A DNA stretch of 64,000 nucleotides from Flavobacterium sp. TR2 (GTDB taxonomy: Bacteria; Bacteroidota; Bacteroidia; Flavobacteriales; Flavobacteriaceae), in contig NZ_CP104307.1 of the NCBI RefSeq assembly GCF_025252405.1, forward strand, positions 310,001 to 374,000. The letters run 5' to 3'. A program made the translations under genes and the position numbers. Positions 16,043-39,435 of the stretch are shown in pieces. Positions within the stretch are counted from its first letter, which is position 1. Each line of letters opens with the position of its first letter. The notes beneath the pieces are model-generated. The model was not told where the DNA came from. It saw only the letters and a program-made list of their open reading frames with translations, and did not search any database.

Positions 16043-18010
16043 CTATTTGTCTAAAATCTCGAAAGTAGAATTCATGCTCTTAAATTCTGGAACAATTTTT
16101 TTCATCTTAGCGACGATATCGTCATTTTCATAAAAATCAGCAATGCCAATTAATTCGTCAACATCATTATGAAGGGTTTCATACTCATCCTGAATTTCTT
16201 GAGCAATCATAATCTTATTATGATATGTTGGAAGAGTTTTAGAAGTATCATTTAGTAATTCTTCATAAAGCTTTTCACCTGGTCTCAGACCAACGATTTT
16301 TATCTTAATTTCTTTATCTGGAATAAAACCTGCAAGTTTTATCATTTTTCGAGCCAAATCAATAATTCTAACGGGTTTACCCATATCAAAAATATAAATC
16401 TCGCCACCATTACCCATTGCACCTGCTTCTAATACAAGCTGACAAGCCTCTGGAATAGTCATAAAGTAACGAATTATATCTTGATGTGTAATGGTTACTG
16501 GTCCACCTTCTGCAATTTGCTTAGTAAACAACGGAACAACTGAACCATTTGAGCCTAAAACGTTTCCAAAGCGAGTAGTGATAAATTTTGTTCCTCCTTC
16601 TACGTTTTCTCTTTGATTTTTCAAGAATAAAGATTGCACATATTTTTCAGCGATTCGCTTACTTGCTCCCATTACATTGCTTGGATTCACAGCTTTATCC
16701 GTAGAAACCATTACAAATTTCTTTACATGATATTTGCAAGCTAAATCAGCAAGGTTCTTGGTTCCTTTTATATTGGTTTGGATTGCCTGAGCAGGATTTT
16801 CTTCCATCAGAGGCACGTGTTTATATGCCGCTGCATGGAAAACAACATGCGGATTATAGCTTTTAAAAACTTTATCCAATGCTTTTTTACTTCTCACATC
16901 TGCAATTACAGCTACAATCTTTGTACTGAAATTCATTGATTGAGTTTCTAAGCATAAATTGTGCAAAGGTGTCTCTGCATGATCTAAAACAATAACATTT
17001 TTAGGATTAAAATTTAGAACCTGCCTTACAATCTCACTTCCGATTGAACCGGCTGCACCAGTAATTAAAATTGTTTTATCTTTTAATTGCTTAGAAATTG
17101 ATTTACTATCTAGAACTATAGGTTTTCTTTCAAGTAAATCTTCAATTTGTATGTTTTTTACTTTCTGAGAAATCTCTTTTTGGTTTTCCCAATCGGAAAT
17201 CAAGGGAACTGTATATACCCGATAATTAAATTCTAAACACTGATCAACAATAATAAGCTGTTCATCCTTAGTCAAGCTTTTATCTGCAATAATTACTCCC
17301 TCTGCAGCAACAGATCTCATTAGCGCAGGAAGTTTTTTTCTTAAAATTAAAATCGGAAGATCCAGCATACGCTTTGATGCATTCTGATTATTCTTATCAA
17401 CAAATCCTACAATTTTAAATCTGGAAGGCGTTTCAAATTTTAAAGCATTTGCAACAGAAATTGCATTTGCATCTGTACCGTAAATAACTGTTCTTACAAG
17501 CTTAGTAGTCGCTTTTTCTGAAAAGTACATCTCGAATGTCTGTTTTACAATAACGCGATATAAAAACAGCCCACAAAAAGACAAAACTAAGTTGATAAAA
17601 AGAGCTGTATTTAAAAATGCTTTATGCCCGGTATAAAGTTCAAAGATTAAATTTATAAATAGAAAGAAGACCAAAACCGACATTTGAGAAAAAAGCAGTT
17701 TTATAGCATCAATATAAGATGAATGTCTGATAATTCCGGAATAGGTTCTAAAGAGCCAAAAGAAAAAAACATTGACAGTTATTAAACTAGCTACAAAATA
17801 AAAATCATGAGATGTTATAATATATCCTATCGCTGTACCGTCAAAAAGCAAATACGTAAAAGAAAATGAAAAAAACAAGACCATTACATCAATAGCAATA
17901 ATAATCCATCTTGGCAGATAGCTTAAATTATTGATGTTTGCTCTAAGATTTCTTGGAGAAAAGGTCTTATATAACAAAGAGGTTATGTTATTTGGTTTTT
18001 CTGTATTCAA
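16043..18010 (-). CDS. wbpM: WbpM/CapD-type UDP-N-acetylglucosamine 4,6-dehydratase, membrane-anchored (655 aa)
   Basis: An inner-membrane enzyme converting UDP-GlcNAc to the 4-keto-6-deoxy sugar used for QuiNAc, FucNAc and their 4-amino derivatives. Four transmembrane helices lie at roughly 35-57, 70-87, 110-126 and 132-151. A CoA-binding-like domain follows (about 170-280), then the SDR domain with TGAAGSIG at 317-324 and STDKAVNPSNVMGASK, in which Met replaces the usual catalytic Tyr, as in WbpM. The start is a TTG at 18010; the only nearby upstream ATG is out of frame and soon stops. A TAnnTTTG box lies 39 bp upstream. Confidence 0.93.
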   Translation of the reverse strand: MNTEKPNNITSLLYKTFSPRNLRANINNLSYLPRWIIIAIDVMVLFFSFSFTYLLFDGTAIGYIITSHDFYFVASLITVNVFFFWLFRTYSGIIRHSSYIDAIKLLFSQMSVLVFFLFINLIFELYTGHKAFLNTALFINLVLSFCGLFLYRVIVKQTFEMYFSEKATTKLVRTVIYGTDANAISVANALKFETPSRFKIVGFVDKNNQNASKRMLDLPILILRKKLPALMRSVAAEGVIIADKSLTKDEQLIIVDQCLEFNYRVYTVPLISDWENQKEISQKVKNIQIEDLLERKPIVLDSKSISKQLKDKTILITGAAGSIGSEIVRQVLNFNPKNVIVLDHAETPLHNLCLETQSMNFSTKIVAVIADVRSKKALDKVFKSYNPHVVFHAAAYKHVPLMEENPAQAIQTNIKGTKNLADLACKYHVKKFVMVSTDKAVNPSNVMGASKRIAEKYVQSLFLKNQRENVEGGTKFITTRFGNVLGSNGSVVPLFTKQIAEGGPVTITHQDIIRYFMTIPEACQLVLEAGAMGNGGEIYIFDMGKPVRIIDLARKMIKLAGFIPDKEIKIKIVGLRPGEKLYEELLNDTSKTLPTYHNKIMIAQEIQDEYETLHNDVDELIGIADFYENDDIVAKMKKIVPEFKSMNSTFEILDK

Positions 18011-18048
18011 TTTAGCATTTTTTAAGTCAGTAAAATTTGAACTTTATA

Positions 18049-18056
18049 CAAAAATA
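18049..18056 (-). promoter_or_regulatory. Candidate -7 element upstream of wbpM
   Basis: On the minus strand the bases read TATTTTTG, an exact match to the Bacteroidota TAnnTTTG box, 39 bp from the TTG start. The upstream TTG element is poor, so the promoter is only a candidate. Confidence 0.35.
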
Positions 18057-18094
18057 CAAATTAAAGGTTTTAAATAATTACTTAGTGGTGCAAA

Positions 18095-18979
18095 TTAAAT
18101 TTTAACACCTTTTTTCTTTTGCTTCAAAAACTCTAATAAATAGGTTCCGTACCCTGATTTAAGCAATGGCTGAGCCAATTCCTCCAGTCTTGCATCATCA
18201 ATAAAGCCTTGTCTCCAAGCAATTTCTTCAATACAACCCACTTTTAAACCTTGTCTCTCCTCTAAAACTTGTACAAATTGCCCTGCCTGTATTAAACTAT
18301 TGAATGTTCCTGTGTCTAGCCAAGCAGTACCTCTACTTAATATCCCTACTTTTAATTTTCCTTTCTCAAGATAGACTTTATTAACATCTGTGATTTCGTA
18401 TTCGCCACGTGCACTAGGTTTTATATTTTTTGCTATTTCTACAACAGAATTATCATAAAAATATAGGCCTGGGACCGCATAATTTGATTTAGGCTCTAAA
18501 GGTTTTTCCTCAATTGAAATAGCATTTTTATTTTCATCAAATTCTACCACTCCATATCTTTCTGGATCCGCAACATGGTATGCAAAGACAACCCCCCCTT
18601 CTGGATTAGCATTATCTTTTAATAGCTGTTGCATATTTGTTCCGAAAAAAATATTGTCGCCCAAAACTAAAGCTACTTTATCAGTGCCAATAAATTCCTC
18701 ACCTATCACAAAAGCTTGAGCAAGTCCATTAGGATTTAGCTGTTCAGCATAGCTAAATTTACAACCTATTGAGCTTCCATCTCCCAAAAGCTTCTTAAAG
18801 TGCGGTAAATCATGAGGAGTAGATATAATCAAAATTTCATTGATTCCAGCCATCATTAAAGTTGATAACGGATAATAAATCATGGGTTTATCATAAACAG
18901 GCATTAATTGTTTACTTACAGCTAATGTTAATGGATGCAATCTTGTGCCAGAACCTCCAGCTAATATAATTCCTTTCAT
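18095..18979 (-). CDS. rmlA: Glucose-1-phosphate thymidylyltransferase (294 aa)
   Basis: First enzyme of dTDP-L-rhamnose synthesis: glucose-1-phosphate plus dTTP gives dTDP-glucose. The N-terminal signature [16 protein letters not shown] with the later [17 protein letters not shown] is diagnostic, as are LGDNIFFG and YEITDVN. Length 294 is typical of RmlA. It lies downstream of rmlD with a 63-bp gap that contains a hairpin, and rmlB lies 19 kb away in the same locus. Confidence 0.96.
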
Positions 18980-19022: not shown

Positions 19023-19043
19023 AAATCTCTAAATCAGAGATTT
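19023..19043 (-). other. Perfect inverted repeat beside the rmlD stop
   Basis: Arms of 8 nt (19023-19030 and 19036-19043) with a 5-nt loop directly against the rmlD stop. No proper T-run follows on the minus strand, so it may slow polymerase or stabilise the RNA instead of terminating. Confidence 0.35.
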
Positions 19044-19888
19044 TAAACAAACATTTTTTTTAAACTTCCCTTATAATTTGGAATATTCATATTATAAACT
19101 GTCTCTATTTTTTCCTTGCTTAATAATGAAAAGCTAGGCCTCTTTGCAGGAGTTGGGTACGATGACGAGGGAATCCCTCCTACTTTACAATTATAATTTC
19201 CAAATTCTTTAATACTTAATGCAAATTCGTACCAGCTAATTTCGCCTTCATTTGAATAATTATAAATTCCAGGTATCCATTTGGATGATTCAATTATATC
19301 AATCATTGCCTGTGCTAAATCAGCTGCATAAGTTGGAGAACCAATCTGGTCATTCACCACATTGATTTCATCTCTTTCCTGCATTAATCTCTGCATGGTT
19401 TTTACAAAATTACTTCCATACTTGCTGTAAACCCAAGAAGTCCTAATTATAATAGATTCTGGATTTTCTTTCAAACAAGCAATTTCACCAGCCAATTTAC
19501 TTTCTCCATAAATATTTATAGGATTAGTTTCAGCTTCTTCATTTAAAGCAATTGATGAAGATCCATCAAAAACATAATCTGTTGAGATATGAATTAATTT
19601 TGCATTATTTTCTGCAGAGTATTTTGCAATTAATTCTACCGCTAAGTGATTCACTTTAAAAGCCAAATCTTTTTCTGATTCAGCTCTATCAACAGCCGTA
19701 TAAGCTCCACAATTAAATATAATATCTGGATTAATCTTATCTAATTGAGATTGAAGCAATTCTAAATTATCTAATGTTGCCTGCGTTCGATCAGCAAACA
19801 CCCATTCATAATGAGAATATGAAGGCGCTAAAACTGAAAGTTCAGATCCTAATTGCCCTGTTGCACCAGTTACTAGAATTTTTTTCAT
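19043..19888 (-). CDS. rmlD: dTDP-4-dehydrorhamnose reductase (281 aa)
   Basis: Last step of dTDP-L-rhamnose synthesis: NAD(P)H reduction of the 4-keto group. An SDR with the cofactor-binding TGATGQLGSE at 7-16, STDYVFDG at 102-109 and the catalytic pair Y127/K131 in YGESK. The substrate-binding region TSWVYSKYGSNFVKTM and PTYAADLA are RmlD hallmarks. It shares one base with the rmlC stop. A perfect 8-bp inverted repeat abuts its stop codon. Confidence 0.96.
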   Translation of the reverse strand: MKKILVTGATGQLGSELSVLAPSYSHYEWVFADRTQATLDNLELLQSQLDKINPDIIFNCGAYTAVDRAESEKDLAFKVNHLAVELIAKYSAENNAKLIHISTDYVFDGSSSIALNEEAETNPINIYGESKLAGEIACLKENPESIIIRTSWVYSKYGSNFVKTMQRLMQERDEINVVNDQIGSPTYAADLAQAMIDIIESSKWIPGIYNYSNEGEISWYEFALSIKEFGNYNCKVGGIPSSSYPTPAKRPSFSLLSKEKIETVYNMNIPNYKGSLKKMFV

Positions 19889-20436
19889 TAAAATAAGCTA
19901 TTACAATTTTCGATAAAAGGCAGGATTTGATCTTTTTCGGAAACGATTGCCTCATTTAAGTTCATCCCCCAATCAATATTTAGAGATGGATCATCGTATT
20001 TAATCCCTCCTTCTGAGGCTTTATTATAAAATTGATCACATTTATACATTACCGAAGCCGTTTCACTAATAACTGAAAATCCATGCGCAAATCCTTGAGG
20101 AACTAACAATTGTTTTTTATTTTCTGCTGATAATAAAATACTAAATGACTTTCCATAAGTAGGGGAATCTTTTCTTAAATCTACAGCAACATCAATAATT
20201 TCTCCTTCTAAAACACGAACTAACTTTGTTTGAGCGAAAGGAGGATTTTGATAATGCAACCCTCTTAAAGTCCCTTTTTTTGAAAAAGACTGGTTATCTT
20301 GAACAAATTCAATATTAATTCCTAAATCTTCCAATTTGATTTTACTATAAGACTCAAAAAAATATCCTCTTTCGTCTCCAAAAACTGTTGGCTCAACAAT
20401 TACCAGGTCTTTTATAAATGTTTCTTCAATTTTCAT
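19888..20436 (-). CDS. rmlC: dTDP-4-dehydrorhamnose 3,5-epimerase (182 aa)
   Basis: Cupin-fold epimerase of the rhamnose pathway. Visible signatures: DERGYFFESY, the active-site LRGLHYQNPP with His61, the phosphate-contacting K71 and R74, VPQGFAHGF and MYKCDQFY. Length is typical. It lies between the aminotransferase (15-bp gap) and rmlD (1-base overlap). Confidence 0.96.
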   Translation of the reverse strand: MKIEETFIKDLVIVEPTVFGDERGYFFESYSKIKLEDLGINIEFVQDNQSFSKKGTLRGLHYQNPPFAQTKLVRVLEGEIIDVAVDLRKDSPTYGKSFSILLSAENKKQLLVPQGFAHGFSVISETASVMYKCDQFYNKASEGGIKYDDPSLNIDWGMNLNEAIVSEKDQILPFIENCNSLF

Positions 20437-20451: not shown

Positions 20452-21579
20452 TCATTTAAAGAAATTGACAATAACTTCTTTAATTCTCTCTTTATCTTGA
20501 CCTGTTAAATTTGATCCTGATGGCAAACATAATCCTTTTTCAAATAATTCTTCAGCAATTATACCGCCATAATATGGATATTTTTTAAAAACTGGCTGTA
20601 GATGCATTGGCTTCCATAACGGCCTACTCTCTATATTTGCTTCGTTAAAAGCGAGTCTTAAACTTTCTTTTTCTTCTTTTGTGTTTAAAAGTACTGTATT
20701 AAGCCAATAGTTAGAAATGGAGTCATTGTCCAGATTATCAAAAAGTTTTGCGTTTTTGACTTCTTTAAAAATCTCCTTATAGAATAAATGATTTGCTTGT
20801 CTTAATCTAATATTTTTTTCTAAGATTTTCATTTGCCCCAAACCTATTCCTGCGCAAATATTACTCATTCTATAATTGTAGCCTATTTCACTATGCTGAT
20901 AATGTACCTCTGCATCTTTTGATTGAGTAGCATAAAAAATTGCTTTTTTCTTTTGTTCTTTATGTCTAGCGATTAATGCGCCGCCGCTAGAAGTCGTAAT
21001 AATTTTATTTCCATTGAAAGATAAAATACCAAAGAATCCGAAACTACCACATTTTTTCCCTTTATAACTGCTACCAAGCGCTTCAGCGCTATCTTCAATA
21101 ATTGGTATCTCATATTTATCAGCAATTGAATGTATTTCATCTACCTTATATGGCATACCGTATAAATGAACCGCTATAATCGCTTTGGGTTTTTTTCCTT
21201 TTTTTATTCGATCATTTATGGCTATTTCAAGTTTTTCGGGGCAAATATTCCAAGTATCTGCTTCACTATCTACAAATAATGGAGATGCATTCTGATATAA
21301 AATTGGATTTGCAGAAGCTGAAAAAGTCATACTTTGGCAAATTACCTCATCGCCGGCTTTAACACCTAATAAGATTAAAGCTAAATGTATAGCGGATGTT
21401 CCAGAATTTGTAGTGGCAACAAAGTTTTCATTTCCAAAATAACCCTGAAGTATATTTTCAAACTCCTCTACATTTGGTCCTCCAGAAGTAATCCAATTTG
21501 ACTTTAAAGCATTCTGAATGTAATCTTGCTCAAATCCGCTTTCTTGAGATAATGATAAATAAATCCTTTTATTTTCCAT
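20452..21579 (-). CDS. DegT/DnrJ/EryC1/StrS aminotransferase, PglE-like (375 aa)
   Basis: I choose the ATG at 21579 (MENKRIYLSLSQESG), as the longer frame from 21630 would run further into the preceding gene. PLP-enzyme features: SNWITSGGPNVEEFE, NSGTSAIHLAL (phosphate loop), D163 in IEDSAEALGS and the Schiff-base K192 in LSFNGNKIITTSSGG. This arrangement resembles PglE and GDP-perosamine synthases, which aminate C4 of a nucleotide 4-keto-6-deoxy sugar. The likely substrate is the product of WbpM, giving UDP-QuiNAc4N. No dedicated N-acyltransferase is adjacent. It overlaps the cupin gene by 11 bp. Confidence 0.88.
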   Translation of the reverse strand: MENKRIYLSLSQESGFEQDYIQNALKSNWITSGGPNVEEFENILQGYFGNENFVATTNSGTSAIHLALILLGVKAGDEVICQSMTFSASANPILYQNASPLFVDSEADTWNICPEKLEIAINDRIKKGKKPKAIIAVHLYGMPYKVDEIHSIADKYEIPIIEDSAEALGSSYKGKKCGSFGFFGILSFNGNKIITTSSGGALIARHKEQKKKAIFYATQSKDAEVHYQHSEIGYNYRMSNICAGIGLGQMKILEKNIRLRQANHLFYKEIFKEVKNAKLFDNLDNDSISNYWLNTVLLNTKEEKESLRLAFNEANIESRPLWKPMHLQPVFKKYPYYGGIIAEELFEKGLCLPSGSNLTGQDKERIKEVIVNFFK

Positions 21580-22000
21580 TATTAATACGCCAATAATCCG
21601 ACGGATAAAGAACATCGTCATCGCTAACATTACTCAATGGCAATGTAGAAAAAGATATTAATTTTGAATTTTCTTCCAGAGATTCTATTGCATTTGCGTA
21701 ACCAGCAGGTATGTGAACTATTTTACTGTCAGATTCAGAAACATAAACAGTCTCAATCGTTAAATCCTTTGAAGGATTTTCCCAATTATCAATTTTTAGA
21801 AAATAGATATTAAAAGCCCCTGAAAGACAATAGAAGTTTTTAGCATCTAATTTATGTCCTTGCCAAGCTCGAACTGGATTTTCCTTCGAATTAGTTATAA
21901 TGTAAAACCTTTCAATATCAGTAAAGTTAAAATCATTTACATACGATATACTTCCTCGTTGATCTGAAAATTTTCCTCCCTGAATTATTTTAGGCTCCAT
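21569..22000 (-). CDS. WxcM-like sugar cupin (143 aa)
   Basis: A small cupin of the WxcM/FdtA-like sugar isomerase-epimerase group. Visible: SDQRGSISYVNDF, RAWQGHKLDAKNFYCLSG, KIDNWENPS and the second cupin strand VHIPAGYANAIESLE. Family members move keto groups or epimerise 4-keto-6-deoxy sugar nucleotides. Only one of the two histidines of the ketoisomerase HxH site is present (QGH), so classical FdtA chemistry is doubtful. A clear paralogue lies at 27363-27779. It overlaps the initiating transferase stop region by 11 bp and the aminotransferase by 11 bp. Confidence 0.75.
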   Translation of the reverse strand: MEPKIIQGGKFSDQRGSISYVNDFNFTDIERFYIITNSKENPVRAWQGHKLDAKNFYCLSGAFNIYFLKIDNWENPSKDLTIETVYVSESDSKIVHIPAGYANAIESLEENSKLISFSTLPLSNVSDDDVLYPSDYWRINNGK

Positions 22001-22961
22001 GATTCAATCGTAAATTATTTTTGTTTAACAAATAAAATTTTGAAGAATAAAGCAACAATAAAGGTAAAATTACAATTAAGAAAATAAGCAAATCTTGAAC
22101 TTTTTGATAAAAAAGAATTACTAGTAAAGAAATTCCAGCTTGAGCTAAGGCATAAAGAAGAGACACTAATCTATGTTGCATTTTATATTCATTACTTAAT
22201 ATTTGATACAAATGCAATCTATGCGCCTCAAAAATATTCTGTTTCAGATAAAGTCTATGCAAAATTGTACAAACCGCATCAACCCCATATACAGCTAAAA
22301 ACAACAGCCAAATAAGTGATTCTGTTACAAGAATTAGTTTTACAACCAAATAAATTATCCAAAAAGCTATTGCAATACTTCCAACATCCCCGGCAAAGCA
22401 TTTTGCTTTTTTTCTGTAATTGAAGAATAGAAAAACTAGACTAGCAATTATTGCATATTTAATAAACATTCCATCAATGAAAAGCTGGATTTTTGTATTG
22501 ACATACAATAATGATCCCATTACAACTAAAGTATAAAGGCCAGTAATTCCATTAATTCCATCCATAAAATTATAGGCATTTATTAGTCCGATGGCCAGTA
22601 CATAAGAAACTACAACTCCCCAAACAGGCATTAAATGGAATAAATTTAAATCATGAAAAATCAAAGTAATTGAAAGAAAATGAACTGCAATTCTAATTTT
22701 GTTTGATAGGCTTTGAATATCATCCCAAAAACTAACTAAACTGACTAAGGTTATACCTGTAAAGAAAAAGTAATTGCTTTGAATATTCTGTAAAAAATAA
22801 ATTAAAGCCGAAAACCAGAAAATTATTCCTCCTCCCCGTAATGTTATTTCTTTATGAGAGCTTCTTTCGTTCGGCTTATCAATTATATTAAAATGATCTG
22901 CTATTTTGAAATAAAGCAGCATAATGATCATTAAAATTATTCCGAGTATGGTATATTCCAT
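21990..22961 (-). CDS. Initiating undecaprenyl-phosphate sugar-1-phosphate transferase, WecA/WbpL/MraY superfamily (323 aa)
   Basis: Integral membrane enzyme that starts the repeat unit by moving a HexNAc-1-phosphate onto undecaprenyl phosphate. About ten hydrophobic segments are visible. Family motifs: RGGG at 42-45, the DD pair at 80-81 (FWDDIQSL), NAYNFMDGINGITG at 128-141 and the Mg-site FAGDVGS at 189-195, plus the cytoplasmic HRLHLYQ loop. It forms a pair with the SDR gene upstream (3-bp gap), as WbpV and WbpL do in Pseudomonas. QuiNAc-1-P, QuiNAc4N-1-P or FucNAc-1-P is the likely donor; this is inference. Confidence 0.9.
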   Translation of the reverse strand: MEYTILGIILMIIMLLYFKIADHFNIIDKPNERSSHKEITLRGGGIIFWFSALIYFLQNIQSNYFFFTGITLVSLVSFWDDIQSLSNKIRIAVHFLSITLIFHDLNLFHLMPVWGVVVSYVLAIGLINAYNFMDGINGITGLYTLVVMGSLLYVNTKIQLFIDGMFIKYAIIASLVFLFFNYRKKAKCFAGDVGSIAIAFWIIYLVVKLILVTESLIWLLFLAVYGVDAVCTILHRLYLKQNIFEAHRLHLYQILSNEYKMQHRLVSLLYALAQAGISLLVILFYQKVQDLLIFLIVILPLLLLYSSKFYLLNKNNLRLNHGA

Positions 22962-22964
22962 TAT

Positions 22965-23864
22965 TTATTCTGTAAAACTTTTAATTGTTATTTCTAATCC
23001 TTTCTGTGCACTATATGGGAGTTTATCAATTCCGATTGCTTTCTTTATTTTTTGGTTAGAAACTTTATAATTTTCCGTTAGCTTTTGAAGAGTTTCACTG
23101 TTCAAAGGAAATCTTAACAAATCTCCAATTTTACTAAAACTTCCAATTACGAACTTAGGTATCGCAATAGAAATATTTCTTTTATTTGTAACTGAAGATA
23201 TTATATGAATTAATTCATTTGTCGATATAAATTCGTCATCAGCAATATTATAAATTCCAGAATCAACATTTTTATTTTCAATAATTGTTTTGATTATGAA
23301 ACATAAATTTTCAATACTTAAAAATGATCTTTCATTTTTATATGAAGCCAAAGGCCATGGTACACCTTTTGAAACCAATTTATATAGTAAGTTCAGATTT
23401 CCCTTATTCTCTGGCCCATGAATCATACATGGTCTTAATATATAAACTCGTTTAGTTTCTGGTAATTTTTGTTGTAAAATATATTCTTCAGCTTTATATT
23501 TTGCAATTCCATAATGTGTTTTGGGGTCAGCAATTACATCTTCAGTTAAAATTCCATCAACCTTGTCAGCTACTGCTTTTACTGTACTCATAAAAATAAA
23601 TACTGAAGCATCTGACAACAAGAATGAATCAAACAATTGCTTTGTTAACTCAAAATTTGATTCATAATAATCTTTCGGTTTTGAAACTTTTTTAAGATCA
23701 TGTGCTTTTCCAGCAAGATGAATTAATACATCTGTCTCCAGATTAAATTTTTGATTTGGAACATATCTAACACTAAGTGATTCAACATTACACGTATCAT
23801 ATAAATAACTTTGAAGATTGGTTCCTACAAAACCTGTAGATCCCGTTATTGCAACTTTTATCAT
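22965..23864 (-). CDS. NAD-dependent epimerase/reductase, WbpV-like SDR (299 aa)
   Basis: Extended SDR with TGSTGFVGTNL at 7-17, FMSTVKA at 91-97 and the catalytic Y118/K122 in YGIAK. PCMIHGPENKGNLNLL and NERSFLSIENL match the subfamily that reduces or epimerises UDP-HexNAc derivatives beside WecA-like transferases. With WbpM encoded nearby, 4-reduction of the keto intermediate to UDP-D-QuiNAc (or FucNAc) is the best-supported role. UDP-GlcNAc 4-epimerase activity is the alternative. It shares one base with the upstream glycosyltransferase gene. Confidence 0.82.
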   Translation of the reverse strand: MIKVAITGSTGFVGTNLQSYLYDTCNVESLSVRYVPNQKFNLETDVLIHLAGKAHDLKKVSKPKDYYESNFELTKQLFDSFLLSDASVFIFMSTVKAVADKVDGILTEDVIADPKTHYGIAKYKAEEYILQQKLPETKRVYILRPCMIHGPENKGNLNLLYKLVSKGVPWPLASYKNERSFLSIENLCFIIKTIIENKNVDSGIYNIADDEFISTNELIHIISSVTNKRNISIAIPKFVIGSFSKIGDLLRFPLNSETLQKLTENYKVSNQKIKKAIGIDKLPYSAQKGLEITIKSFTE

Positions 23865-25069: not shown

Positions 25070-25070
25070 T

Positions 25071-26210
25071 TTACAACTCTCTCCAAACCACACGTTTCAC
25101 ATAATCCGTATAACTTAAAATAATACGAACCATTTTTTCAGAAACATTTGGCATTGAATAATCAGCAACTGGTCTAAAATTTCTTTCTTTTCCTGTTTTT
25201 TGGTATTGAAGCTGCACTAATCCTTGCAAAATTCTTTCAGGATTTAAACCTACCATCATTACTGAAGTCTCCTCCATTGCCTCTGGTCTTTCATGTGCAT
25301 CTCTAATATTAAGAGCTCTAAAATTCAATACTGAAGATTCTTCTGAAATTGTTCCTGAATCTGATAAAACAGCAAAAGATTTCATTTGCAAAGCGTTATA
25401 ATCATTAAATCCAAGCGGTTTTAAGAATTGAACATTTGCATGCATTTGAATATTTTTCTTTTCAATCATATTTCTTGTTCGAGGGTGCGTACTAACAATG
25501 ATTGGGTAATCATATTTTTCAGCAATAAGATTTAAGCTATCCATCAAACCTTTAAAATTTGCTTCGCTATTAATATTCTCCTCTCTATGAGATGATACAA
25601 CAAAAAACTTTCCTTCTTCCAATCCTAATCTTTCTAATACATCGGAAGATTCAATAGATGGTAAGTAATGATTTAAAACCTCAAACATTGGAGAACCCGT
25701 TTTGATAATTCTATCTGCAGGCAGACCCTCTCTCAACAAGTATTCTCTCGCGATATCACTGTAAGTTAGATTAATATCAGAAGTATGATCTACAATTTTT
25801 CTATTGGTTTCCTCAGGAACACGTTGATCAAAACAGCGATTTCCAGCTTCCATATGGAAAATTGGAATGTGTCTTTTTTTTGCTGGTATTGCGCACAAAC
25901 AACTGTTAGTATCTCCTAAAACTAAAAAAGCATCTGGTTTTTCTGATTCTAATAAAGGATCTATTTTAATTAAGATTTGACCTACAGTTGCTGTTGCTGT
26001 TGCTCCAGCAGCATTTAAGAAAAAATCGGGCTTACGAATTCCTAAATCATCAAAGAAAATTTGATTTAATTCATAATCATAATTTTGTCCAGTATGTACA
26101 ATTACATGCTCGATTGCATCTGAATTATCTAGAGCTGCCATTACTCTTGAAAGACGAATAATTTCTGGTCTTGTCCCAACGACAGTCATTACTTTTAATT
26201 GTGATTTCAT
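25071..26210 (-). CDS. fnlC: Non-hydrolysing UDP-HexNAc 2-epimerase, FnlC/CapG-like (379 aa)
   Basis: WecB-superfamily C2 epimerase. Signatures: VVGTRPEIIRLSRVM, VHTGQNYDYELNQIFF, VLGDTNSCL, FHMEAGNRCFDQRVPEETNR, VSSHREENIN and SDSGTISEESSVL. The MEAGNRCFDQRVPEE form is that of FnlC/CapG enzymes, which convert the FnlB product to UDP-L-FucNAc. It completes the fnlA, fnlB, fnlC order on this strand. Length is typical (about 376). Confidence 0.92.
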   Translation of the reverse strand: MKSQLKVMTVVGTRPEIIRLSRVMAALDNSDAIEHVIVHTGQNYDYELNQIFFDDLGIRKPDFFLNAAGATATATVGQILIKIDPLLESEKPDAFLVLGDTNSCLCAIPAKKRHIPIFHMEAGNRCFDQRVPEETNRKIVDHTSDINLTYSDIAREYLLREGLPADRIIKTGSPMFEVLNHYLPSIESSDVLERLGLEEGKFFVVSSHREENINSEANFKGLMDSLNLIAEKYDYPIIVSTHPRTRNMIEKKNIQMHANVQFLKPLGFNDYNALQMKSFAVLSDSGTISEESSVLNFRALNIRDAHERPEAMEETSVMMVGLNPERILQGLVQLQYQKTGKERNFRPVADYSMPNVSEKMVRIILSYTDYVKRVVWREL

Positions 26211-32318: not shown

Positions 32319-33287
32319 CTATCGAGTTTTATTTTTAATTTTAGAGATCCAACAATAAAAAGAAGGTAAATATTGAAATATTAAGCTATTTTTTCTATTA
32401 AAATATGGATTCTTATTCATTTGATTAAGGTATTGTCTATGTTGACTTCTTAATTTGTCTAGAATATCTTTTGAGGAATTTAATTCAAAAGCACTGCAAT
32501 ACATTGCTATAGAACTGCCTAGGGCGTATGCCTCAAATCTATTAGCACTATCTTCCATCCCTAAAGATCTTAGATTAGAAATAAAATCGTCAAATTCTTT
32601 AAAGACAGATAATTTATTCTCTTTGAAATGACTATTTGTATTCCCTGCACGTACTTTTAGATAATTATGCATAGGTTTATCAAAATAAACCAAGCGATTC
32701 ATCTTTAAGAAAATGTTTCTGTCAAAATAAACATCTTCGAATATTTGTTTGTCGATAAACCTTACATCACCAATAATGTCTCTTGTAAAGACTTTATTCC
32801 AGACTTCAAATCTAACATTCAAATTACTCTCAAACAAAGAATTAACCGCACTAGTTTTGTCATAAATAGTTATGGATTCTGTCTGAGAATTAGCAATAGT
32901 TTCATTTTCATAAACTTCTTTAAATCCACAAACTGCTATTTCAGCTCCTTCACTTTCTATTAAATTAATTAATGTTTCATACATTTCAACATCAATCCAG
33001 TCATCGCTGTCTAGAAAAGCAATGTAATCTCCCGTAGCTTTGTCTAAACCAATATTTCTGGCAGAAGACAATCCTCCATTTTGTTTATGAACAACTTTAA
33101 TTCTGTAATCGCCTGCTCCATACGAATCACATATAGAACCACAACTATCTGTTGAACCATCATTAACTAAGATTATTTCCAAGTCTTTGTAAGTTTGATT
33201 CGTTACAGATTCTATGCACTTAGGGAGATATTTCTCTACGTTATATATAGGAATTATTACCGATAATTTTTTTTGATCATTTGCCAT
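32319..33287 (-). CDS. Glycosyltransferase family 2 (322 aa)
   Basis: Well-conserved GT2: LSVIIPIYNVEKYLPKCIES, IILVNDGSTDSCGSICD, GLSSARNIGLDKATG and FLDSDDWID. The opening is of the type seen in CPS and O-antigen GalNAc, Gal or GlcNAc transferases, but that does not fix the donor. Length is normal. It lies 38 bp from wzy and 35 bp from wzx. A role in the Wzx/Wzy-dependent unit follows from position. Confidence 0.9.
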   Translation of the reverse strand: MANDQKKLSVIIPIYNVEKYLPKCIESVTNQTYKDLEIILVNDGSTDSCGSICDSYGAGDYRIKVVHKQNGGLSSARNIGLDKATGDYIAFLDSDDWIDVEMYETLINLIESEGAEIAVCGFKEVYENETIANSQTESITIYDKTSAVNSLFESNLNVRFEVWNKVFTRDIIGDVRFIDKQIFEDVYFDRNIFLKMNRLVYFDKPMHNYLKVRAGNTNSHFKENKLSVFKEFDDFISNLRSLGMEDSANRFEAYALGSSIAMYCSAFELNSSKDILDKLRSQHRQYLNQMNKNPYFNRKNSLIFQYLPSFYCWISKIKNKTR

Positions 33288-33322: not shown

Positions 33323-34579
33323 TTATAATAGTTTTTCTCTTTTAGTTAGATACCAACAATATGCTATTTCTGTTAATCCTGATAAAGCGATAGACAAAAC
33401 TAAAACATAAATGCTTTTGGTTATTAAAAAACCAATAAGGGAATATAACGCAAAACTTGATAAAGCTATTATTTGATTATTGGTAACATATTTATATTTG
33501 TTTTGAGGAATGAAAACAAATGAAATAAATGCTCCTACAACGAGCCAAACAAGAACAACAACACTTAAAATTACTGAAACAGGATAAGAATCCAACATTG
33601 TTTCGCCTCCCATTATTAATACTATCCATCTTCCAAATATTGCTATTAAAGCAATAACTGACAATCCAACTAAAGCTTCATAACGAATGATTTTTTTGAT
33701 TTGTTGTGGCTTGACATTTGCAACTATTTTTGGAAACAAAGCTAAATTCACATTTACTAATAACGTCCTCGGAATTAGTATAATTTTATTTGCCAAATCA
33801 TAGATTGCAACATCTCTCATTCCAAAAAAAGAACCTATTATAATTGTGATGCTTTGCTCTTTAACAATCCCAAGCGATGAACTCAGAAAGAATGGAAAAG
33901 CTTCTTTATACCAAATTTTAACCTCCTTAAATGAAACCCAATTTAGTTTTATTCCTTCATTAAACCTTACAATTAAAGCTGCTGTAATAGCTCCTAATAG
34001 ACTAACTAAAGTTGTAATTAATGCAAAAATCCATAGATCCTTTGGACTATGAATCATAATGAAAATAAATGGTAAAGACAAAATTTTAAAAAGCAATTGA
34101 ATGTAAGTAACAATCTTCATTCTTTGCACACCTTGAAAATACCATTGAGGAAAAAAAATACCCGATAAAGTTTGAAGAAAACAAATTACATATATTACAT
34201 AATTTTCTCTTAATGCAGGTATTGTCAATATAATTAATGTAAATACAATAGTAGATACAAATTGCAGATACATTTTTGCAGTAAATATACATGATAAAAC
34301 ATGTGATTTTTTTTCTAAATCATTCCCATTAGTTGCAATCGCTTTAACCCCAGGAAAATCAAAACCATTTCCTATAAACGTAATAAAATAAGTTACTACT
34401 GATGTTGCAAAAATGTATAAACCATAGCTTTCCGCACCTAAAGTACGTATAAGAAAAGGATAGATAAGAAAATAAAACAATGAACTTAATATTTGTAAAA
34501 TAGTCATGAAAAAATAATTTTCCATAACTTTTCTATTTTCAATAATCAATGTTTTTACATTTAGTAATTTCTCTTTCAT
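33323..34579 (-). CDS. wzx: Polysaccharide flippase, Wzx-like (418 aa)
   Basis: MATE/MVF-fold flippase that moves the undecaprenyl-linked unit across the inner membrane. About twelve hydrophobic helices are visible, starting with YFFMTILQILSSLFYFLIYPFLIRTLGAESYG, whose LGAESYGLY is the Wzx signature. IYDLANKIILIPRTL and the paired helices near the C-terminus also fit. The ATG at 34579 is preferred to a TTG at 34588. A 14-codon open frame ends on this ATG (ATGA overlap). Upstream lies a 175-bp gap. Confidence 0.9.
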   Translation of the reverse strand: MKEKLLNVKTLIIENRKVMENYFFMTILQILSSLFYFLIYPFLIRTLGAESYGLYIFATSVVTYFITFIGNGFDFPGVKAIATNGNDLEKKSHVLSCIFTAKMYLQFVSTIVFTLIILTIPALRENYVIYVICFLQTLSGIFFPQWYFQGVQRMKIVTYIQLLFKILSLPFIFIMIHSPKDLWIFALITTLVSLLGAITAALIVRFNEGIKLNWVSFKEVKIWYKEAFPFFLSSSLGIVKEQSITIIIGSFFGMRDVAIYDLANKIILIPRTLLVNVNLALFPKIVANVKPQQIKKIIRYEALVGLSVIALIAIFGRWIVLIMGGETMLDSYPVSVILSVVVLVWLVVGAFISFVFIPQNKYKYVTNNQIIALSSFALYSLIGFLITKSIYVLVLSIALSGLTEIAYCWYLTKREKLL

Positions 34580-34754
34580 AACAAACAATAACTAACTGTA
34601 ATAACTAATCCCTCTTCCATCTCCAATATTTTGTTTTATAATTTTATATATTATTAATTGTTCCAAAGTTTCTAACGATTATTTTGAATTCAATTTAAGA
34701 ACCAACTAAAACAATCAAAAACTTAAATTTTAGACGTCACAAAAACAATTAAAA

Positions 34755-35831
34755 TTAATTTTCGCTATTAGCTTCATTAAACTTGCGTTTTAAAATTAAA
34801 AACAAAATAGTTAATACAGTAAAGAGAAAACCTCCAAAAACTATTCCTTTCACCTTACTTGTTTTCTCTTTTGGCAATGGTAAAATAGGTCTATCGATTA
34901 CTTGAATCAAAGGTGTTTCTTTTCGCAACGTAACTTTTGCTAATTCGCTTTGTTTCACCAGCTCAGATAGAATAGCTGTATTTGCCTGTACATCAACTTG
35001 TCTTCTAGCGGAAGGAGCCCTACGAATGTTGAGAGCCGGATTAAGATTAAAAGCATTATCATTTGCAATTGCAACCCCAGTAATTGCACTATTTAATTCA
35101 GCTCTTACAGAATCTACCTGACGTTCCAAAATTTCCATGTTTTTACGTGCTTTTTTGCTTTTCGTCTCTACATAAAATTCCCCTACTTGTCTTGCAAGTG
35201 CTTCACAAAAGTAAAGTGAAAATAGTTCATCATTTGAAGAAACATCCATTGAAATGATAGAAATTTTTTTATCTTTTTGGACTACTGATAAAGAATTTTT
35301 ATACAAATTTTGATAAATCATTCCTAAAATACTGTCATGAACTCGAGTAAACTTACTTTCATCTTGGTTTACAAACTGAATATTCTTTAATTTAGGACTA
35401 TCTTCCCATTTCTCACGCCACTTTTTATCTTGTATGTACATTTCTGCCAAAGAAATTACTTTGCCATTCACATTAACAGGCACTAGTAAAGTCTTCTCTA
35501 CCATTCGGCGTGATTTAAATAATTCAGTTAAATTTAAACCGGTAAACATGCTTCCTCCGCCACCGCCACCGATATCAATTCCAAACGTACTAGCTAGACC
35601 AAGTGCTCCGCCTAATCCACCCCCTGTTTTTTCATCTTCCAACGCAAATGTCAATGTTGCCGTATAAATAGGTTTTTTAAAGTATGAATATACAAATCCT
35701 AAAACACCTCCAATTAATCCCATTAAGACAAGTATTCTCCATTTGGATAGTAAATACCCTTTCCATTCATTTACTATCTGAATTAATTCTTTTAACGATA
35801 TTTCGCTGTTTTCAACAGACTGATTTTCCAT
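34755..35831 (-). CDS. Polysaccharide chain-length determinant, Wzz-like (358 aa)
   Basis: Inner-membrane polysaccharide co-polymerase. Topology is the Wzz type: short N-terminus, first transmembrane helix at about 32-52 (WRILVLMGLIGGVLGFVYSYF), a long periplasmic domain with coiled-coil character, and a second helix at about 328-347 (IVFGGFLFTVLTILFLIL). PLPKEKTSKVKG just before the second helix is the conserved Pro-rich segment. There is no kinase domain. A glycine-rich loop (GGGLGGALGLASTFGIDIGGGGGG region, about 70-94) is unusual. It is separated from the export protein gene by 5 bp. Confidence 0.88.
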   Translation of the reverse strand: MENQSVENSEISLKELIQIVNEWKGYLLSKWRILVLMGLIGGVLGFVYSYFKKPIYTATLTFALEDEKTGGGLGGALGLASTFGIDIGGGGGGSMFTGLNLTELFKSRRMVEKTLLVPVNVNGKVISLAEMYIQDKKWREKWEDSPKLKNIQFVNQDESKFTRVHDSILGMIYQNLYKNSLSVVQKDKKISIISMDVSSNDELFSLYFCEALARQVGEFYVETKSKKARKNMEILERQVDSVRAELNSAITGVAIANDNAFNLNPALNIRRAPSARRQVDVQANTAILSELVKQSELAKVTLRKETPLIQVIDRPILPLPKEKTSKVKGIVFGGFLFTVLTILFLILKRKFNEANSEN

Positions 35832-35836: not shown

Positions 35837-38341
35837 TTATTTAAAAGCTGTAACTATTAATAAAGCTAAACTAGAAATTACACTTCCTATACCTACCCAT
35901 TCTCCAGCAGTCATTTTCTTCTTTTCAGGCTTTTCAGGAACGACAATTTGCGAATCTGGCTCTACTTTAGGATAAGATCTAAAGAATAAAAACGAACTTG
36001 TAACAGCTGCCTTTCCATTAGGATATATTATATATGATTTTCTTTTCCATCCTTTACTATCGATACCTCCAACAGAATTAATATAATATTTAAACCCTTT
36101 ACCATTTCTATAAGGAATTTCAGAAGTTAAAAGTACATTTCCTGTAACTTTAACTCCTTCATTATATACCGCAACCTCAATTTCATCTCCAGGAAATAAG
36201 GTAACATTAGAATAGTGATTTTTATCTTTCACGATCTTTTCCCAATTCACAGGAATAGTTGTGTATTTTAACTCGTCTCTTAATTTTTTTGATAACTTAG
36301 ATTTAAGTGTATCTTTAGTTTTCAAATTTAATTCCTCTGGAGCTCCTTCTTTTTTCTCTAACGTTTCTTTCTTTTCAAGGTTAAGATTTATGGTTTCTAG
36401 CTGCTCAATCTGCTCTTCTTTGATTGGTCGTTTGATTTTCATACCATCTAAATTAGCAATAGATGTTAGTCCTCCAGCTCTCATTACTACATTGTAAACT
36501 CTCTCCTTTTTATTTGCTAGAACATATTTCCCTGGATAGGTAACGGCACCGCTTACTTTAACCATTTCTGGTTTCTCATAGACAGCCATTCGACGGATAT
36601 TAATAACATCAAAGGGTTTTAAAACAAAATTCTTAATTTGTTCATTATTGTCTGCCGTTATCTCTAATTCAACTAATTCTATTCGCTTCGGATCTGCATC
36701 ATCAATAGCATCAGATTTAATCATTCTCGCAATTTCAACTCTTTTTGAAGCTGAGCCAGTTAATCCTCCAACTTGGACAACTAAATCATTTAAAGTAAGA
36801 TTCTCGAAATATTCATACTCGCCAGGATTTTTTACTTCTCCATCTATAGTCACTTTATATTCCTCTCTAAAATCTAAAATAGAATATACTGTAACTATAT
36901 CTTCTCTTTTTAATTCAATGTCTGCATTTAAGTCTCCTGACAATGCAGCACCTAAATCTACATTAACAATTTCAGTAGTCAAATCTGTTTTCAGACGAAT
37001 AATTCTTGCTCGCTTACTATAAGCGTCTTCTTTTAATCCTTCTGCTCTTGTAACAAGATCTGAAATTCTCATTCCTTCTGTAAATGAGTAATAATCTGGT
37101 CTAAAAACGGCTCCTTCAATCTTAATACGGTTTTCAAATCGATTTAAAATCTTAGTAATCCTAAAAACATCTCCCGATTGAGGTTGATAAGAATTATATT
37201 CGCTTTCATTTATATCATGTACCTTAAATTCTTTTCCTGTCTTTTGCAATACATTCACTGATGCTGTATAAGCAAATTCATTAAATCCAGATGCAAAATT
37301 CAATAGATCAGAAAACTTTTCTCCTTTTTTCATTTCGAAAATACCTGGGCGTTTTACTTCTCCTTCTACTACAACTCTTTGAGTATAAGCAGGGATTCTA
37401 ATGACATCATTATCTCTTAAGCTTACATTATCGGATTGATCTCCTTTTACTAAAAACTTATAGATGTCAACATTTTTATAAATCTTATTATTTCTAATTA
37501 ATTCTATATTTCTGTAACTACCGTTTTTTCCAGGTCCACCTGCCAAATGCAATGCATTATAAACGGATGCTAAAGATGATATTGAATAATTTCCTGGCTG
37601 TTTACCTCCAACAATTGTTACTTTTATAGTTCTTATATCACTTAAACTAACACTAACCTGAGATTGCCCAGATCTAACTGTACTATATACTCTAGCAATT
37701 GCAGCTCTAATTTTTTGTGTAGCTGCTTCAATAGACATTCCTGCCACAGAAATTTGTCCAACATTAGTTATCGAAATTTTACCTTCAAAATTTACAGGAA
37801 CAGTATCTTCAAATTGCTGAACACCATATATACTAACTTCTAATTTATCTCCTGGCCCTAGAACATAGTTAACTGGTGTAGCCATTTTCAGATCTGGTTC
37901 AAAATTTAAAGTAGGATTATCAAATAATTCTGAACCAAAAACTAAAGCATTTAAAGAATCTTTAATTTTCTCATTTTTTATTTTTTCCTGTTTTCTACCA
38001 AACTCTGAGTCCTTATCTATTTTTTTAAGTTTGTCCTGATCCTTTTTATTTTTGTCTTTATCCTTATCTGAAGTATTCTTTTTTTCGTATTCTGTAATAC
38101 GAGTTCTTAACTTATCAAATTCCGTTTGACTCATCCCTTTGGACAAAGCCATAGATTCAACATCATTAATAGTTGCATTATTACTTTTTAATTGCGCAAT
38201 AATTTTTGCAATTTCATCATCTGACAAATAATCTACTTTTACAGTACTAAGGTCTTTAGATTTTACAATATCTTGGGCATTTGCATTTAAGGATATTAAT
38301 AACGTAAAAAATAGAGCAAGAACGTATGTTATTTTTTTCAT
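35837..38341 (-). CDS. Large SLBB-domain polysaccharide export protein, OPX family (834 aa)
   Basis: Outer-membrane export protein of the Wza superfamily, in the long form common in Bacteroidota. A signal peptide is visible (MKKITYVLALFFTLLISLNA, cleavage around residue 22). A strongly charged Lys/Asp-rich linker follows at about 95-130. The Poly_export motif is PVNYVLGPGDKLEVSIYG, followed by about six SLBB repeats, each with a pattern like VxGEVxxPGxY (for example VTIVGGKQPGNYSI, VVVEGEVKRPGIF, VTIDGEVKNPGEY and VKVSGAVTYPGKY). The C-terminus ends in one hydrophobic helix (WVGIGSVISSLALLIVTAF). There is no lipobox cysteine. Confidence 0.9.
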   Translation of the reverse strand: MKKITYVLALFFTLLISLNANAQDIVKSKDLSTVKVDYLSDDEIAKIIAQLKSNNATINDVESMALSKGMSQTEFDKLRTRITEYEKKNTSDKDKDKNKKDQDKLKKIDKDSEFGRKQEKIKNEKIKDSLNALVFGSELFDNPTLNFEPDLKMATPVNYVLGPGDKLEVSIYGVQQFEDTVPVNFEGKISITNVGQISVAGMSIEAATQKIRAAIARVYSTVRSGQSQVSVSLSDIRTIKVTIVGGKQPGNYSISSLASVYNALHLAGGPGKNGSYRNIELIRNNKIYKNVDIYKFLVKGDQSDNVSLRDNDVIRIPAYTQRVVVEGEVKRPGIFEMKKGEKFSDLLNFASGFNEFAYTASVNVLQKTGKEFKVHDINESEYNSYQPQSGDVFRITKILNRFENRIKIEGAVFRPDYYSFTEGMRISDLVTRAEGLKEDAYSKRARIIRLKTDLTTEIVNVDLGAALSGDLNADIELKREDIVTVYSILDFREEYKVTIDGEVKNPGEYEYFENLTLNDLVVQVGGLTGSASKRVEIARMIKSDAIDDADPKRIELVELEITADNNEQIKNFVLKPFDVINIRRMAVYEKPEMVKVSGAVTYPGKYVLANKKERVYNVVMRAGGLTSIANLDGMKIKRPIKEEQIEQLETINLNLEKKETLEKKEGAPEELNLKTKDTLKSKLSKKLRDELKYTTIPVNWEKIVKDKNHYSNVTLFPGDEIEVAVYNEGVKVTGNVLLTSEIPYRNGKGFKYYINSVGGIDSKGWKRKSYIIYPNGKAAVTSSFLFFRSYPKVEPDSQIVVPEKPEKKKMTAGEWVGIGSVISSLALLIVTAFK

Positions 38342-38388
38342 ATTTACGAGAAAATTATTTCAAAGATATTTATTTACTAAAATCTTCT

Positions 38389-39435
38389 TTATGAGTATTG
38401 TTTTTGATAATAATCTTTATAAGCCCCTGAAGTAACATTCTGGAGCCATTCTTGGTTATCTAGGCACCAATTTATAGTCTTTTCTAATCCTTCTTCAAAA
38501 GTAACAGAAGGTTTCCAACCTAATTCTTTATTAATTTTTGAGGCATCTATAGCATAACGCAAATCGTGGCCTGGTCTGTCTTTTACGTATGTTATTAATT
38601 TTTCAGAAGCACCTTCCGCCCTTCCTAATTTCCTATCCATTATTTTACATAGCAACTTAACGAGATCTATATTTTTCCATTCATTAAATCCGCCAATATT
38701 ATAAGTTTCATGATTTTTTCCTTCATGAAAAACTAAATCTATTGCAATTGCATGATCCTCTACAAATAGCCAATCACGCGTATAATTTCCATCTCCGTAA
38801 ACAGGTAGTGACTTATTATTTATAATATTATTAATAAAAAGAGGAATAAGTTTCTCAGGAAAATGATATGATCCATAATTATTTGAACAATTAGTTAAAA
38901 CATATGGAAGACCATAAGTTTCTCCATAAGCTCTAACAAAATGATCAGAACTTGCTTTTGAAGCAGAATATGGAGAATTAGGGTCATACGGTGTTTGTTC
39001 AGTAAACAGCCCAGTAGAACCTAAGGAACCGTAAACTTCATCTGTACTAATGTGATAAAATCTTTTCCCTTGAGAATTATCTTTCCATTGATTCTTAGCT
39101 GCATTCAATAAATTCATTGTTCCGATAACATTTGTTTTCACAAATGCTAATGGATCTTCAATTGAACGATCAACATGAGATTCTGCTGCTAAATGTAAAA
39201 CACCATCGAAGTTATGAAGTTTAAAAAGTTCATTAATAAAATTTTCATCAACAATATCTCCTTTTACAAACGTGTAATTTGGTTTATTTTCAATATCTTT
39301 TATATTTTCAAGGTTTCCCGCATAAGTCAATGCGTCTAAATTGAAAATTTGATATTCTGGATATTTATTCACAAAACGTCTAACTACATGAGAACCAATA
39401 AAACCAGCTCCACCAGTTATTAGAATTTTTTTCAT
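38389..39435 (-). CDS. rmlB: dTDP-glucose 4,6-dehydratase (348 aa)
   Basis: Second enzyme of dTDP-L-rhamnose synthesis and also source of the 4-keto-6-deoxy sugar for dTDP-amino sugars. SDR signatures: TGGAGFIGSH at 7-16, NLDALTYAGN, HLAAESHVDRS, the STDEVYG catalytic triad region (T131, D132, E133) and Y156/K160 in YSASK. NNYGSYHFPEKLIPL and RDWLFVEDHA are RmlB-specific. It is split from rmlC, rmlD and rmlA by about 18 kb. Confidence 0.97.
   Translation of the reverse strand: MKKILITGGAGFIGSHVVRRFVNKYPEYQIFNLDALTYAGNLENIKDIENKPNYTFVKGDIVDENFINELFKLHNFDGVLHLAAESHVDRSIEDPLAFVKTNVIGTMNLLNAAKNQWKDNSQGKRFYHISTDEVYGSLGSTGLFTEQTPYDPNSPYSASKASSDHFVRAYGETYGLPYVLTNCSNNYGSYHFPEKLIPLFINNIINNKSLPVYGDGNYTRDWLFVEDHAIAIDLVFHEGKNHETYNIGGFNEWKNIDLVKLLCKIMDRKLGRAEGASEKLITYVKDRPGHDLRYAIDASKINKELGWKPSVTFEEGLEKTINWCLDNQEWLQNVTSGAYKDYYQKQYS

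Follow-up and report, generated by a model that had tools for sequence, protein, structure and literature searches.

We put at roughly 0.57 the probability that an intact, single-strand run of genes in Flavobacterium sp. TR2 builds a surface polysaccharide of the Wzx/Wzy type whose repeat unit starts with N-acetyl-D-quinovosamine (D-QuiNAc), placed by the initiating transferase WbpL, and continues with N-acetyl-L-fucosamine (L-FucNAc), instead of starting with an acylated form of the 4-amino sugar QuiNAc4N. The run lies in a 64,000-nucleotide stretch, the window (contig NZ_CP104307.1, positions 310,001 to 374,000). A first-pass annotation had assigned its genes at 16043-39435 to an O-antigen of the Flavobacterium psychrophilum kind. 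A D-QuiNAc primer and L-FucNAc as the second sugar are favored by the gene order wbuB-SDRq-wbpL (SDRq is a short-chain dehydrogenase/reductase, SDR), the correlation of SDRq with WbpL across related loci, the WbpL loci that lack the aminotransferase PglE, and the subtype of WbuB. Sugars, linkages, and enzyme activities are throughout predictions from sequence.

Between 1023 and 48259, every annotated open reading frame (ORF) is on the minus strand, and the genes named in the first-pass annotation are long open frames. The genes that carry the argument are listed here with scores in bits, followed where given by the curated NCBIfam equivalog or Pfam cut-off (TM, transmembrane; HexNAc, N-acetylhexosamine).

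38389..39435, minus: rmlB, dTDP-glucose 4,6-dehydratase (TIGR01181 476.6 vs 365.1)
27787..28821, minus: fnlA (TIGR04130 539.6 vs 730, below the equivalog cut-off)
27363..27779, minus: Cup1, FdtA-like cupin between fnlA and fnlB (PF05523 28.7 vs 23)
26236..27354, minus: fnlB reductase, which also has a cupin domain at its C terminus (NF047837 248.9 vs 500; PF14667 162.1 vs 28.7)
25071..26210, minus: fnlC, UDP-HexNAc 2-epimerase of the WecB type (TIGR00236 241.4 vs 210.15)
23864..25093, minus: wbuB-like GT4 glycosyltransferase (NF007640 134.7 vs 276)
22965..23864, minus: SDRq, SDR (PF01370 73.1)
21990..22961, minus: WbpL, WecA/WbpL-family initiating transferase (PF00953 75.2 vs 27; TIGR02380 74.7 vs 326)
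21569..22000, minus: Cup2, 143-aa FdtA-like cupin (PF05523 24.0 vs 23)
20452..21579 (likely start) or 21630 (first start codon), minus: PglE-like 4-aminotransferase (PF01041 318.5; TIGR04181 368.4 vs 420)
19888..20436, minus: rmlC (TIGR01221 229.4 vs 155.75)
19043..19888, minus: rmlD (TIGR01214 308.4 vs 224.05)
18095..18979, minus: rmlA (TIGR01207 481.9 vs 360.65)
16043..18010, minus: wbpM/pglF-type UDP-GlcNAc 4,6-dehydratase (PF02719 401.3 vs 20.2; four N-terminal TM-like segments)

The first-pass gene list is confirmed at the family level. The four rml genes all score above the curated cut-offs, fnlC does so as well, and fnlA and fnlB are family members below theirs; the encoding of L-rhamnose (L-Rha) and L-FucNAc precursors is well supported by these matches. 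WbpM and the PglE-like aminotransferase are present, as are the WecA/WbpL-like starter, the WbuB-like GT4, and the wzx flippase at the places given for them (Pfam and NCBIfam). Cup1, Cup2, SDRq, a TviB-like gene, UpxY, and a Wzm/Wzt cluster with an aminotransferase and a PglD-like gene had been omitted. Pfam assigns WbpM and WbpL to their families, and SDRq is placed by Pfam only as an SDR and by position. WbpL had no match to solved structures up to E 1. The window reductase is of the FnlB type, so L-QuiNAc in place of L-FucNAc is not favored; the L-QuiNAc pathway uses an RmlD-like reductase.

Related loci were compared to place these genes in context. The total of 131 comprises 80 chosen by PglE similarity (the best 80 of 591), 11 by Cup2, and 40 from a genus search, a set biased by PglE/Cup2 selection and not a random sample. 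Three duplicates and L100, which lacks PglE, were dropped before neighborhoods were counted, leaving 127 nonredundant PglE loci: 60 PglC-type, 54 WbpL-type, and 13 unclassified ('edge' 8, 'other' 5). Gene labels in the relatives are best phmmer matches to window proteins, not curated assignments. An SDRq match of at least 50 bits lies upstream of PglE in 48/54 WbpL-type loci compared to 1/60 PglC-type loci, and this link is seen although the WbpL-type loci had shorter upstream DNA (3.5-10 kb, median 6.0) than the PglC-type loci (2-10 kb, median 10.0). Four loci (L100, L176, L182, L183) have WbpL without PglE beside it. The first three carry WbpL-Cup2 and keep an SDRq match (378, 71, and 57 bits, respectively), and in the whole L100 genome no PglE comes closer than 37% identity. 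The glycosyltransferase after fnlC scores at least 380 bits against the window WbuB in 8 of 29 fnlC loci, all WbpL- or SDRq-linked, and 0-77 bits in the 12 PglC-linked loci; six of the 29 are without clear context. The WbuB-like GT4 is predicted to be an L-FucNAc transferase of a subtype found in WbpL/SDRq contexts, and the predicted role of SDRq is the reduction of the 4-keto sugar from WbpM to QuiNAc. The synthesis of QuiNAc by a dehydratase and a reductase is described as demonstrated in Bacillus (PMC4514872). A separate observation on SDRq is that L184 has a 646-aa frame matching it directly before WbpL, possibly a fusion.

Several points weigh against a D-QuiNAc primer. The donor specificity of WbpL is not readable from its sequence. 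SDRq has no equivalog match, and among solved structures it is closest to generic SDRs (best E 2.5e-07). SDRq at 50 bits or more is missing from 6/54 WbpL-PglE loci within the 5.9-10 kb covered upstream, and it scores only 50-300 bits in 13/54. The post-fnlC glycosyltransferases of L009, L127, and L129, which have a WbpL context, score low against the window WbuB. Finally, WbpL is at most three genes upstream of PglE in 41/41 clade members of the genus sample, an arrangement that also fits a QuiNAc4N primer.

In the pathway we propose, WbpM would make a UDP-4-keto sugar with two takers, SDRq and PglE. SDRq would convert the WbpM product to UDP-QuiNAc, WbpL would transfer QuiNAc to undecaprenyl phosphate, and WbuB would add L-FucNAc supplied by FnlA/B/C. 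L-Rha and probably a HexNAc-uronic acid (HexNAcA) and/or the PglE product would be attached by the three remaining glycosyltransferases, and Wzx, the putative Wzy, and Wzz/Wza would complete the polysaccharide. The product of PglE is likely a 4-amino-6-deoxy-HexNAc (QuiNAc4N), formed in a side branch that has no acyltransferase of its own. With four glycosyltransferases and a starter, the unit could have up to five sugars. Of the first-pass repeat unit of L-Rha, L-FucNAc, and a QuiNAc/QuiNAc4N residue, L-Rha and L-FucNAc are well supported, QuiNAc4N is plausible as a third residue, and D-QuiNAc and HexNAcA are also indicated. Literature searches covered Creative Commons-licensed papers; they returned no paper on Flavobacterium WbpL priming or, in the genus, on WxcM/aminotransferase/QuiNAc/undecaprenyl, and for WxcM-FnlA-Bacteroides-QuiNAc the Capnocytophaga canimorsus paper alone.

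The PglE genes of the genus occupy two neighborhoods. Cup2 is present in 49/54 WbpL-type loci and 0/60 PglC-type loci. A PglD-like match of at least 60 bits lies upstream in 0/54 WbpL-type compared to 34/60 PglC-type loci, and at more than 35 bits within seven genes the counts are 1/54 and 37/60. A tree of 128 PglE rows places 53 of the 55 WbpL-type rows, window included, in one clade (Shimodaira-Hasegawa approximate likelihood ratio test, SH-aLRT, 97); L053 and L065 are outside it. The neighborhood label changes 3 times on this tree compared to 41.6 in shuffles, a control inflated by near-copies. The unclassified L169, which has only fragments matching SDRq and WbpL, joins the window PglE clade (54 rows, SH-aLRT 89). 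In the genus sample of 249 genomes, PglE was found in 216 and scores at least 562 bits in 42 (window included). The neighborhoods read were those of the 41 best PglE after the window, the next ~3 (L168-L170), and some from other searches; the 41 have Cup2 in 40 cases. WbpL at E 1e-100 or better occurs in 51/249 genomes. Nine of these lack a PglE of at least 562 bits; six of the nine have a PglE-like match after WbpL (some partial), and six have Cup2. The window genome holds no second close PglE (the next match has 29% identity), and the 13 best-ranked named relatives of its PglE, among the best 80 of 591, are all Flavobacterium. In F. hydatis (L030:15450-16745), Cup2 and the PglE after WbpL are both decayed, and an intact PglC-PglD-PglE set lies upstream.

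The window PglE keeps the residues expected of its family. Its best solved structures are 1o61 (288.6 bits) and 4ztc (286.2 bits), both of which we take to be Campylobacter jejuni PglE. In alignment with these structures, G190, K192, and Y227 (window numbering) are present in at least 98% of the 128 rows. K192 is the catalytic lysine and aligns with the residue changed in 4ztc, and Tyr227 aligns, by count, with PglE Tyr219. The Gly and Tyr219 are tied to PglE-type ligand binding in the account given by PMC8040287. At nine positions the window clade and PglC-type PglE differ with at least 90% conservation on each side. Three of these, positions 31-33, are T, S, and G in 53, 51, and 52 of 53 clade members, and A, P, and L in 57, 58, and 58 of 60 PglC-type rows; 1o61 has APL. 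By these sequence comparisons, the window PglE is a member of the Flavobacterium clade of the WbpL-type neighborhood and departs from PglC-type PglE at the conserved APL loop.

These data bear on whether the repeat unit is instead an F. psychrophilum-like trisaccharide of L-Rha, L-FucNAc, and (acylated) QuiNAc4N with QuiNAc4N first, which we consider unlikely. The composition given in the first-pass annotation is correct: the F. psychrophilum O-polysaccharide is described as L-Rha, L-FucNAc, and D-Qui2NAc4NR (PMC6519341). The window has rmlABCD, fnlABC, wbpM, and a PglE-like gene with its catalytic Lys and aligned Tyr, and WbpL stands close to PglE in all 41 clade members of the genus sample. 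However, the unit of F. psychrophilum 950106-1/1, as described there, has acylated Qui2NAc4N at its reducing end; the PglC homologue WfpB puts this sugar in place, and the PglD homologue WfpG acylates it from an acyl carrier protein (ACP) (PMC6519341). No short PglC-type starter was found in the window's genome (G000, 5,106,313 bases, two contigs), where the two PF02397 matches are 477- and 468-aa frames outside the window; PF02397 had no match among the 40 window ORFs scanned. There is no PglD-type acyltransferase in 16043-38341. The genome has 16 TIGR03570 (NeuD/PglD) matches; one is above the cut-off (10829-11548, beside the aminotransferase of a neighboring ATP-binding cassette (ABC) cluster), and by reading, the 15 below it are hexapeptide proteins. 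In the 20 ORFs of 16043-38341, Pfam detected no ACP, ketosynthase, or reductase gene of the R1 group, unlike in the positive control L019 (F. yafengii), where a PglC, an ACP, a pair of ketosynthases, a reductase, and a PglD precede PglE; R1-group genes are absent from some F. psychrophilum strains too. The window also has four glycosyltransferases besides the starter, not two, and its QuiNAc-type reductase and uronic-acid gene are not needed by the analogy. The O-antigen 'of that kind' is not borne out by this comparison. Gene content against the F. psychrophilum loci, the check suggested at the time, agrees in the sugar-precursor genes and differs in the starter, the acylation genes, and the gene order.

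A second possibility is that WbpL primes with the 4-amino sugar of PglE (with Cup2), its amine left free, so that the tail WbpL-Cup2-PglE-RmlCDA-WbpM would encode a constant first sugar. This tail recurs under varying upstream genes, the six WbpL-PglE loci that lack SDRq in the DNA covered are compatible with it (all 54 were chosen for PglE), and a free amine suits the lack of a conserved N-acyltransferase. The idea is weakened by the four loci with WbpL and no adjoining PglE and by the strong correlation of SDRq with WbpL, and we regard it as improbable. A third possibility is an F. columnare-like unit that combines HexNAcA (TviB) and L-FucNAc with a D-sugar derived from WbpM (4-keto or QuiNAc) and takes up Rha and the PglE product as additions. 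It draws on the TviB-like gene at 40490 but is distinctly improbable: that gene stands beside manC near the start of the run and may serve another glycan, and the likeness is one of composition only.

Cup2 is a paralogue of Cup1 (41% identity), and its orthologues of at least 245 bits are confined to the genus Flavobacterium in a phylum sample of 345 genomes. A model from a 26-sequence alignment (mean predicted local distance difference test, pLDDT, 90; predicted template modeling score, pTM, 0.85) matches the FdtA, QdtA, WlaRB, and RmlC structures, pointing to the RmlC/FdtA cupin fold. FdtA/QdtA 3,4-ketoisomerases and RmlC epimerases have the first His of the HxH motif, whereas the window Cup1 and Cup2 have Gln there: FdtA RGFHAH aligns with Cup2 RAWQGH, replacing FdtA His49. 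Of 17 Cup2-type rows, 16 carry Gln at this position, and one, L100, whose locus and genome are without a close PglE, carries His. Among 27 Cup1-type rows it is Gln, Arg, Thr, Ala, or Lys and never His. A third cupin type has His in 10/10, and the second His is invariant in 54/54 cupins. The invariant residues of the 54 cupins are D13, R15, G16, N22, R31, Y33, R44, W46, H49, G61, and G100 (Cup2 numbering). Cup2 was rejected as an ordinary FdtA ketoisomerase: its fold agrees, but Gln replaces the first catalytic His in 16/17 rows; Cup2 may be an enzyme of another kind. Its relatives are named WxcM-like, QdtA-like, or dTDP-4-dehydrorhamnose 3,5-epimerase (best 120 of 952). Cup2 was also rejected as an obligatory partner of PglE because each occurs without the other: PglE follows WbpL without Cup2 in seven loci (L009, L010, L053, L065, L146, L178, L181), and three WbpL loci (L100, L176, L182) have Cup2 alone, so the two are mutually dispensable. 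As a counterpoint, both decayed together in L030.

Outside the Cup2 group, 27 cupin loci from Bacteroidota were read (L104-L130). A Cup1-type gene lies between fnlA and fnlB in 17/27, and the other 10/27 (L104-L108, L110-L112, L118, L119) are of the third type with the full HxH motif, with an FnlC-like 2-epimerase (174-201 bits) upstream in 9/10 and an RmlD-like gene downstream in 9/10. No description of the chemistry of the Cup1/Cup2 cupin family was found in the Creative Commons-licensed literature; its substrate is likely a UDP-4-keto sugar. We also considered, as a long shot, that in large-genome Flavobacterium the bacillosamine priming set PglC-PglD-PglE has given way to WbpL-Cup2-PglE: a new cupin class (Cup2) and a re-tooled PglE would act on the 4-keto sugar from WbpM, and a WecA-family enzyme would load a free-amine 4-amino (or cupin-altered) HexNAc on the lipid. 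If so, a constant, zwitterion-forming first sugar would underlie variable serotype genes.

The remaining genes of the run and the start of its neighbor are as follows.

42062..42526, minus: UpxY-family transcription antiterminator at the head of the gene run (NF033644 137.9 vs 100; PF02357)
40490..41779, minus: TviB-like UDP-HexNAc 6-dehydrogenase (NF011729 553.5 vs 592; best solved structure 4r16)
39452..40459, minus: mannose-1-phosphate guanylyltransferase-like, manC-like (TIGR01479 281.9 vs 372.95; PF00483 153.4)
35837..38341, minus: Wza-type export protein with SLBB repeats (PF02563 64.8; PF10531 143.4)
34755..35831, minus: Wzz-type chain-length protein without a kinase-domain match (PF02706 28.8 vs 25.5; 2 TM-like segments)
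33323..34588, minus: wzx flippase (PF01943 122.1 vs 28.2)
32319..33287, minus: glycosyltransferase, GT2 type (PF00535 143.7)
31057..32280, minus: putative wzy polymerase (10 TM-like segments and position)
29722..31026, minus: glycosyltransferase, GT4-like, weak (PF00534 25.0 vs 26.4)
28821..29729, minus: glycosyltransferase, GT2 type (PF00535 101.8)
13780..15909, minus: Wzm/Wzt ABC exporter, start of the neighboring cluster downstream of wbpM (PF01061 70.1; PF00005 81.7)
10829..12546, minus: DesI-like second aminotransferase and NeuD/PglB/VioB acyltransferase of the ABC cluster (TIGR04427 222.4 vs 650; TIGR03570 180.9 vs 160.8)

UpxY antiterminators are familiar from Bacteroides capsule loci. 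The UpxY gene indicates that the run extends beyond 16043-39435 and takes in the manC-like and tviB-like genes. The TviB-like enzyme is predicted to supply HexNAcA; N-acetylmannosaminuronic acid was rejected as its product because the TviB score (553.5) exceeds those of ManNAc dehydrogenases (212.9 and 194.0). With a TviC-like gene (44017, NF011728 387.6 vs 760) and a UDP-glucose dehydrogenase-like gene (42601), it would form a uronic-acid supply at 40490-45000, absent from the first-pass gene list. Pfam finds the Wzx, Wzz, and starter of the Wzx/Wzy system. The wzy of the first-pass annotation is putative, called by topology and position, with no Pfam or NCBIfam family match. The Wzm/Wzt cluster (1023-15909) has many glycosyltransferases, an FkbM/RfbT-like methyltransferase (4139-5017), the DesI-like aminotransferase, and the NeuD/PglB/VioB acyltransferase, and it would make a second, ABC-exported glycan.

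O-antigen and capsule cannot be told apart from the sequence of the window. Just upstream of the block are genes for a Wzc-type kinase (45011-47452) and a Poly_export protein (47468-48259, PF02563 56.4 vs 28), and three Wzy_C/ligase-family genes are elsewhere in the genome. Wza was rejected as proof of a capsule because L050, a metagenome-assembled genome (MAG) labeled F. psychrophilum, likewise has Wza/Wzc beside WbpM. In C. canimorsus, a single locus is described as serving both capsule and lipooligosaccharide O-antigen (PMC5156936).

A sugar list drawn from gene names would assign the window the F. psychrophilum O-antigen. What appears new here is the alternative WbpL module, not the sugar list. 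PglE-type genes occupy two starter neighborhoods in one genus, and serotype prediction in Flavobacterium should therefore consider the initiating enzyme. The comparison also brings to light a cupin family whose genes occur between fnlA and fnlB elsewhere in the Bacteroidota as well.

Among known systems, F. psychrophilum (CSF259-93 and 950106-1/1; PMC6519341) shares the genus, rml, fnlABC, wbpM/pglF, pglE, a WbuB-type transferase, and Wzx/Wzy, and its genes are elsewhere given as rmlA, rmlB, wbpM, fnlABC, wbuA, and wbuB with wcgN as the starter (PMC5601056). As described, it has WfpB, WfpG, and acyl-carrier/ketosynthase genes, whereas the window carries WbpL, SDRq, and Cup2, and its PglE belongs to a different clade. 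The only locus for comparing gene order was L050, whose contig starts at PglE: it reads PglE-WbpM-Wza-Wzc compared to PglE-RmlCDA-WbpM-Wzm-Wzt in the window, and its PglE is outside the window clade. The F. columnare ATCC 43622 polysaccharide (PMC3210612), likened by composition and not by locus, combines an L-FucN derivative, a WbpM-type 6-deoxy-D-sugar, and HexNAcA; it differs in having the 4-keto sugar itself and FucNAm, and no Rha. The C. canimorsus 5 locus, likened by its published description only, has fnlABC, wbuB, the wbpM homologue wbtA with wbtB for QuiNAc, rmlACD, and Wzx/Wzy; that description names no PglE and includes a galacturonic acid gene, Glc, Gal, and GalN (PMC5156936). QuiN and FucN were detected there by gas chromatography-mass spectrometry (PMC5156936), in agreement with a D-QuiNAc primer and L-FucNAc as the second sugar in the window.

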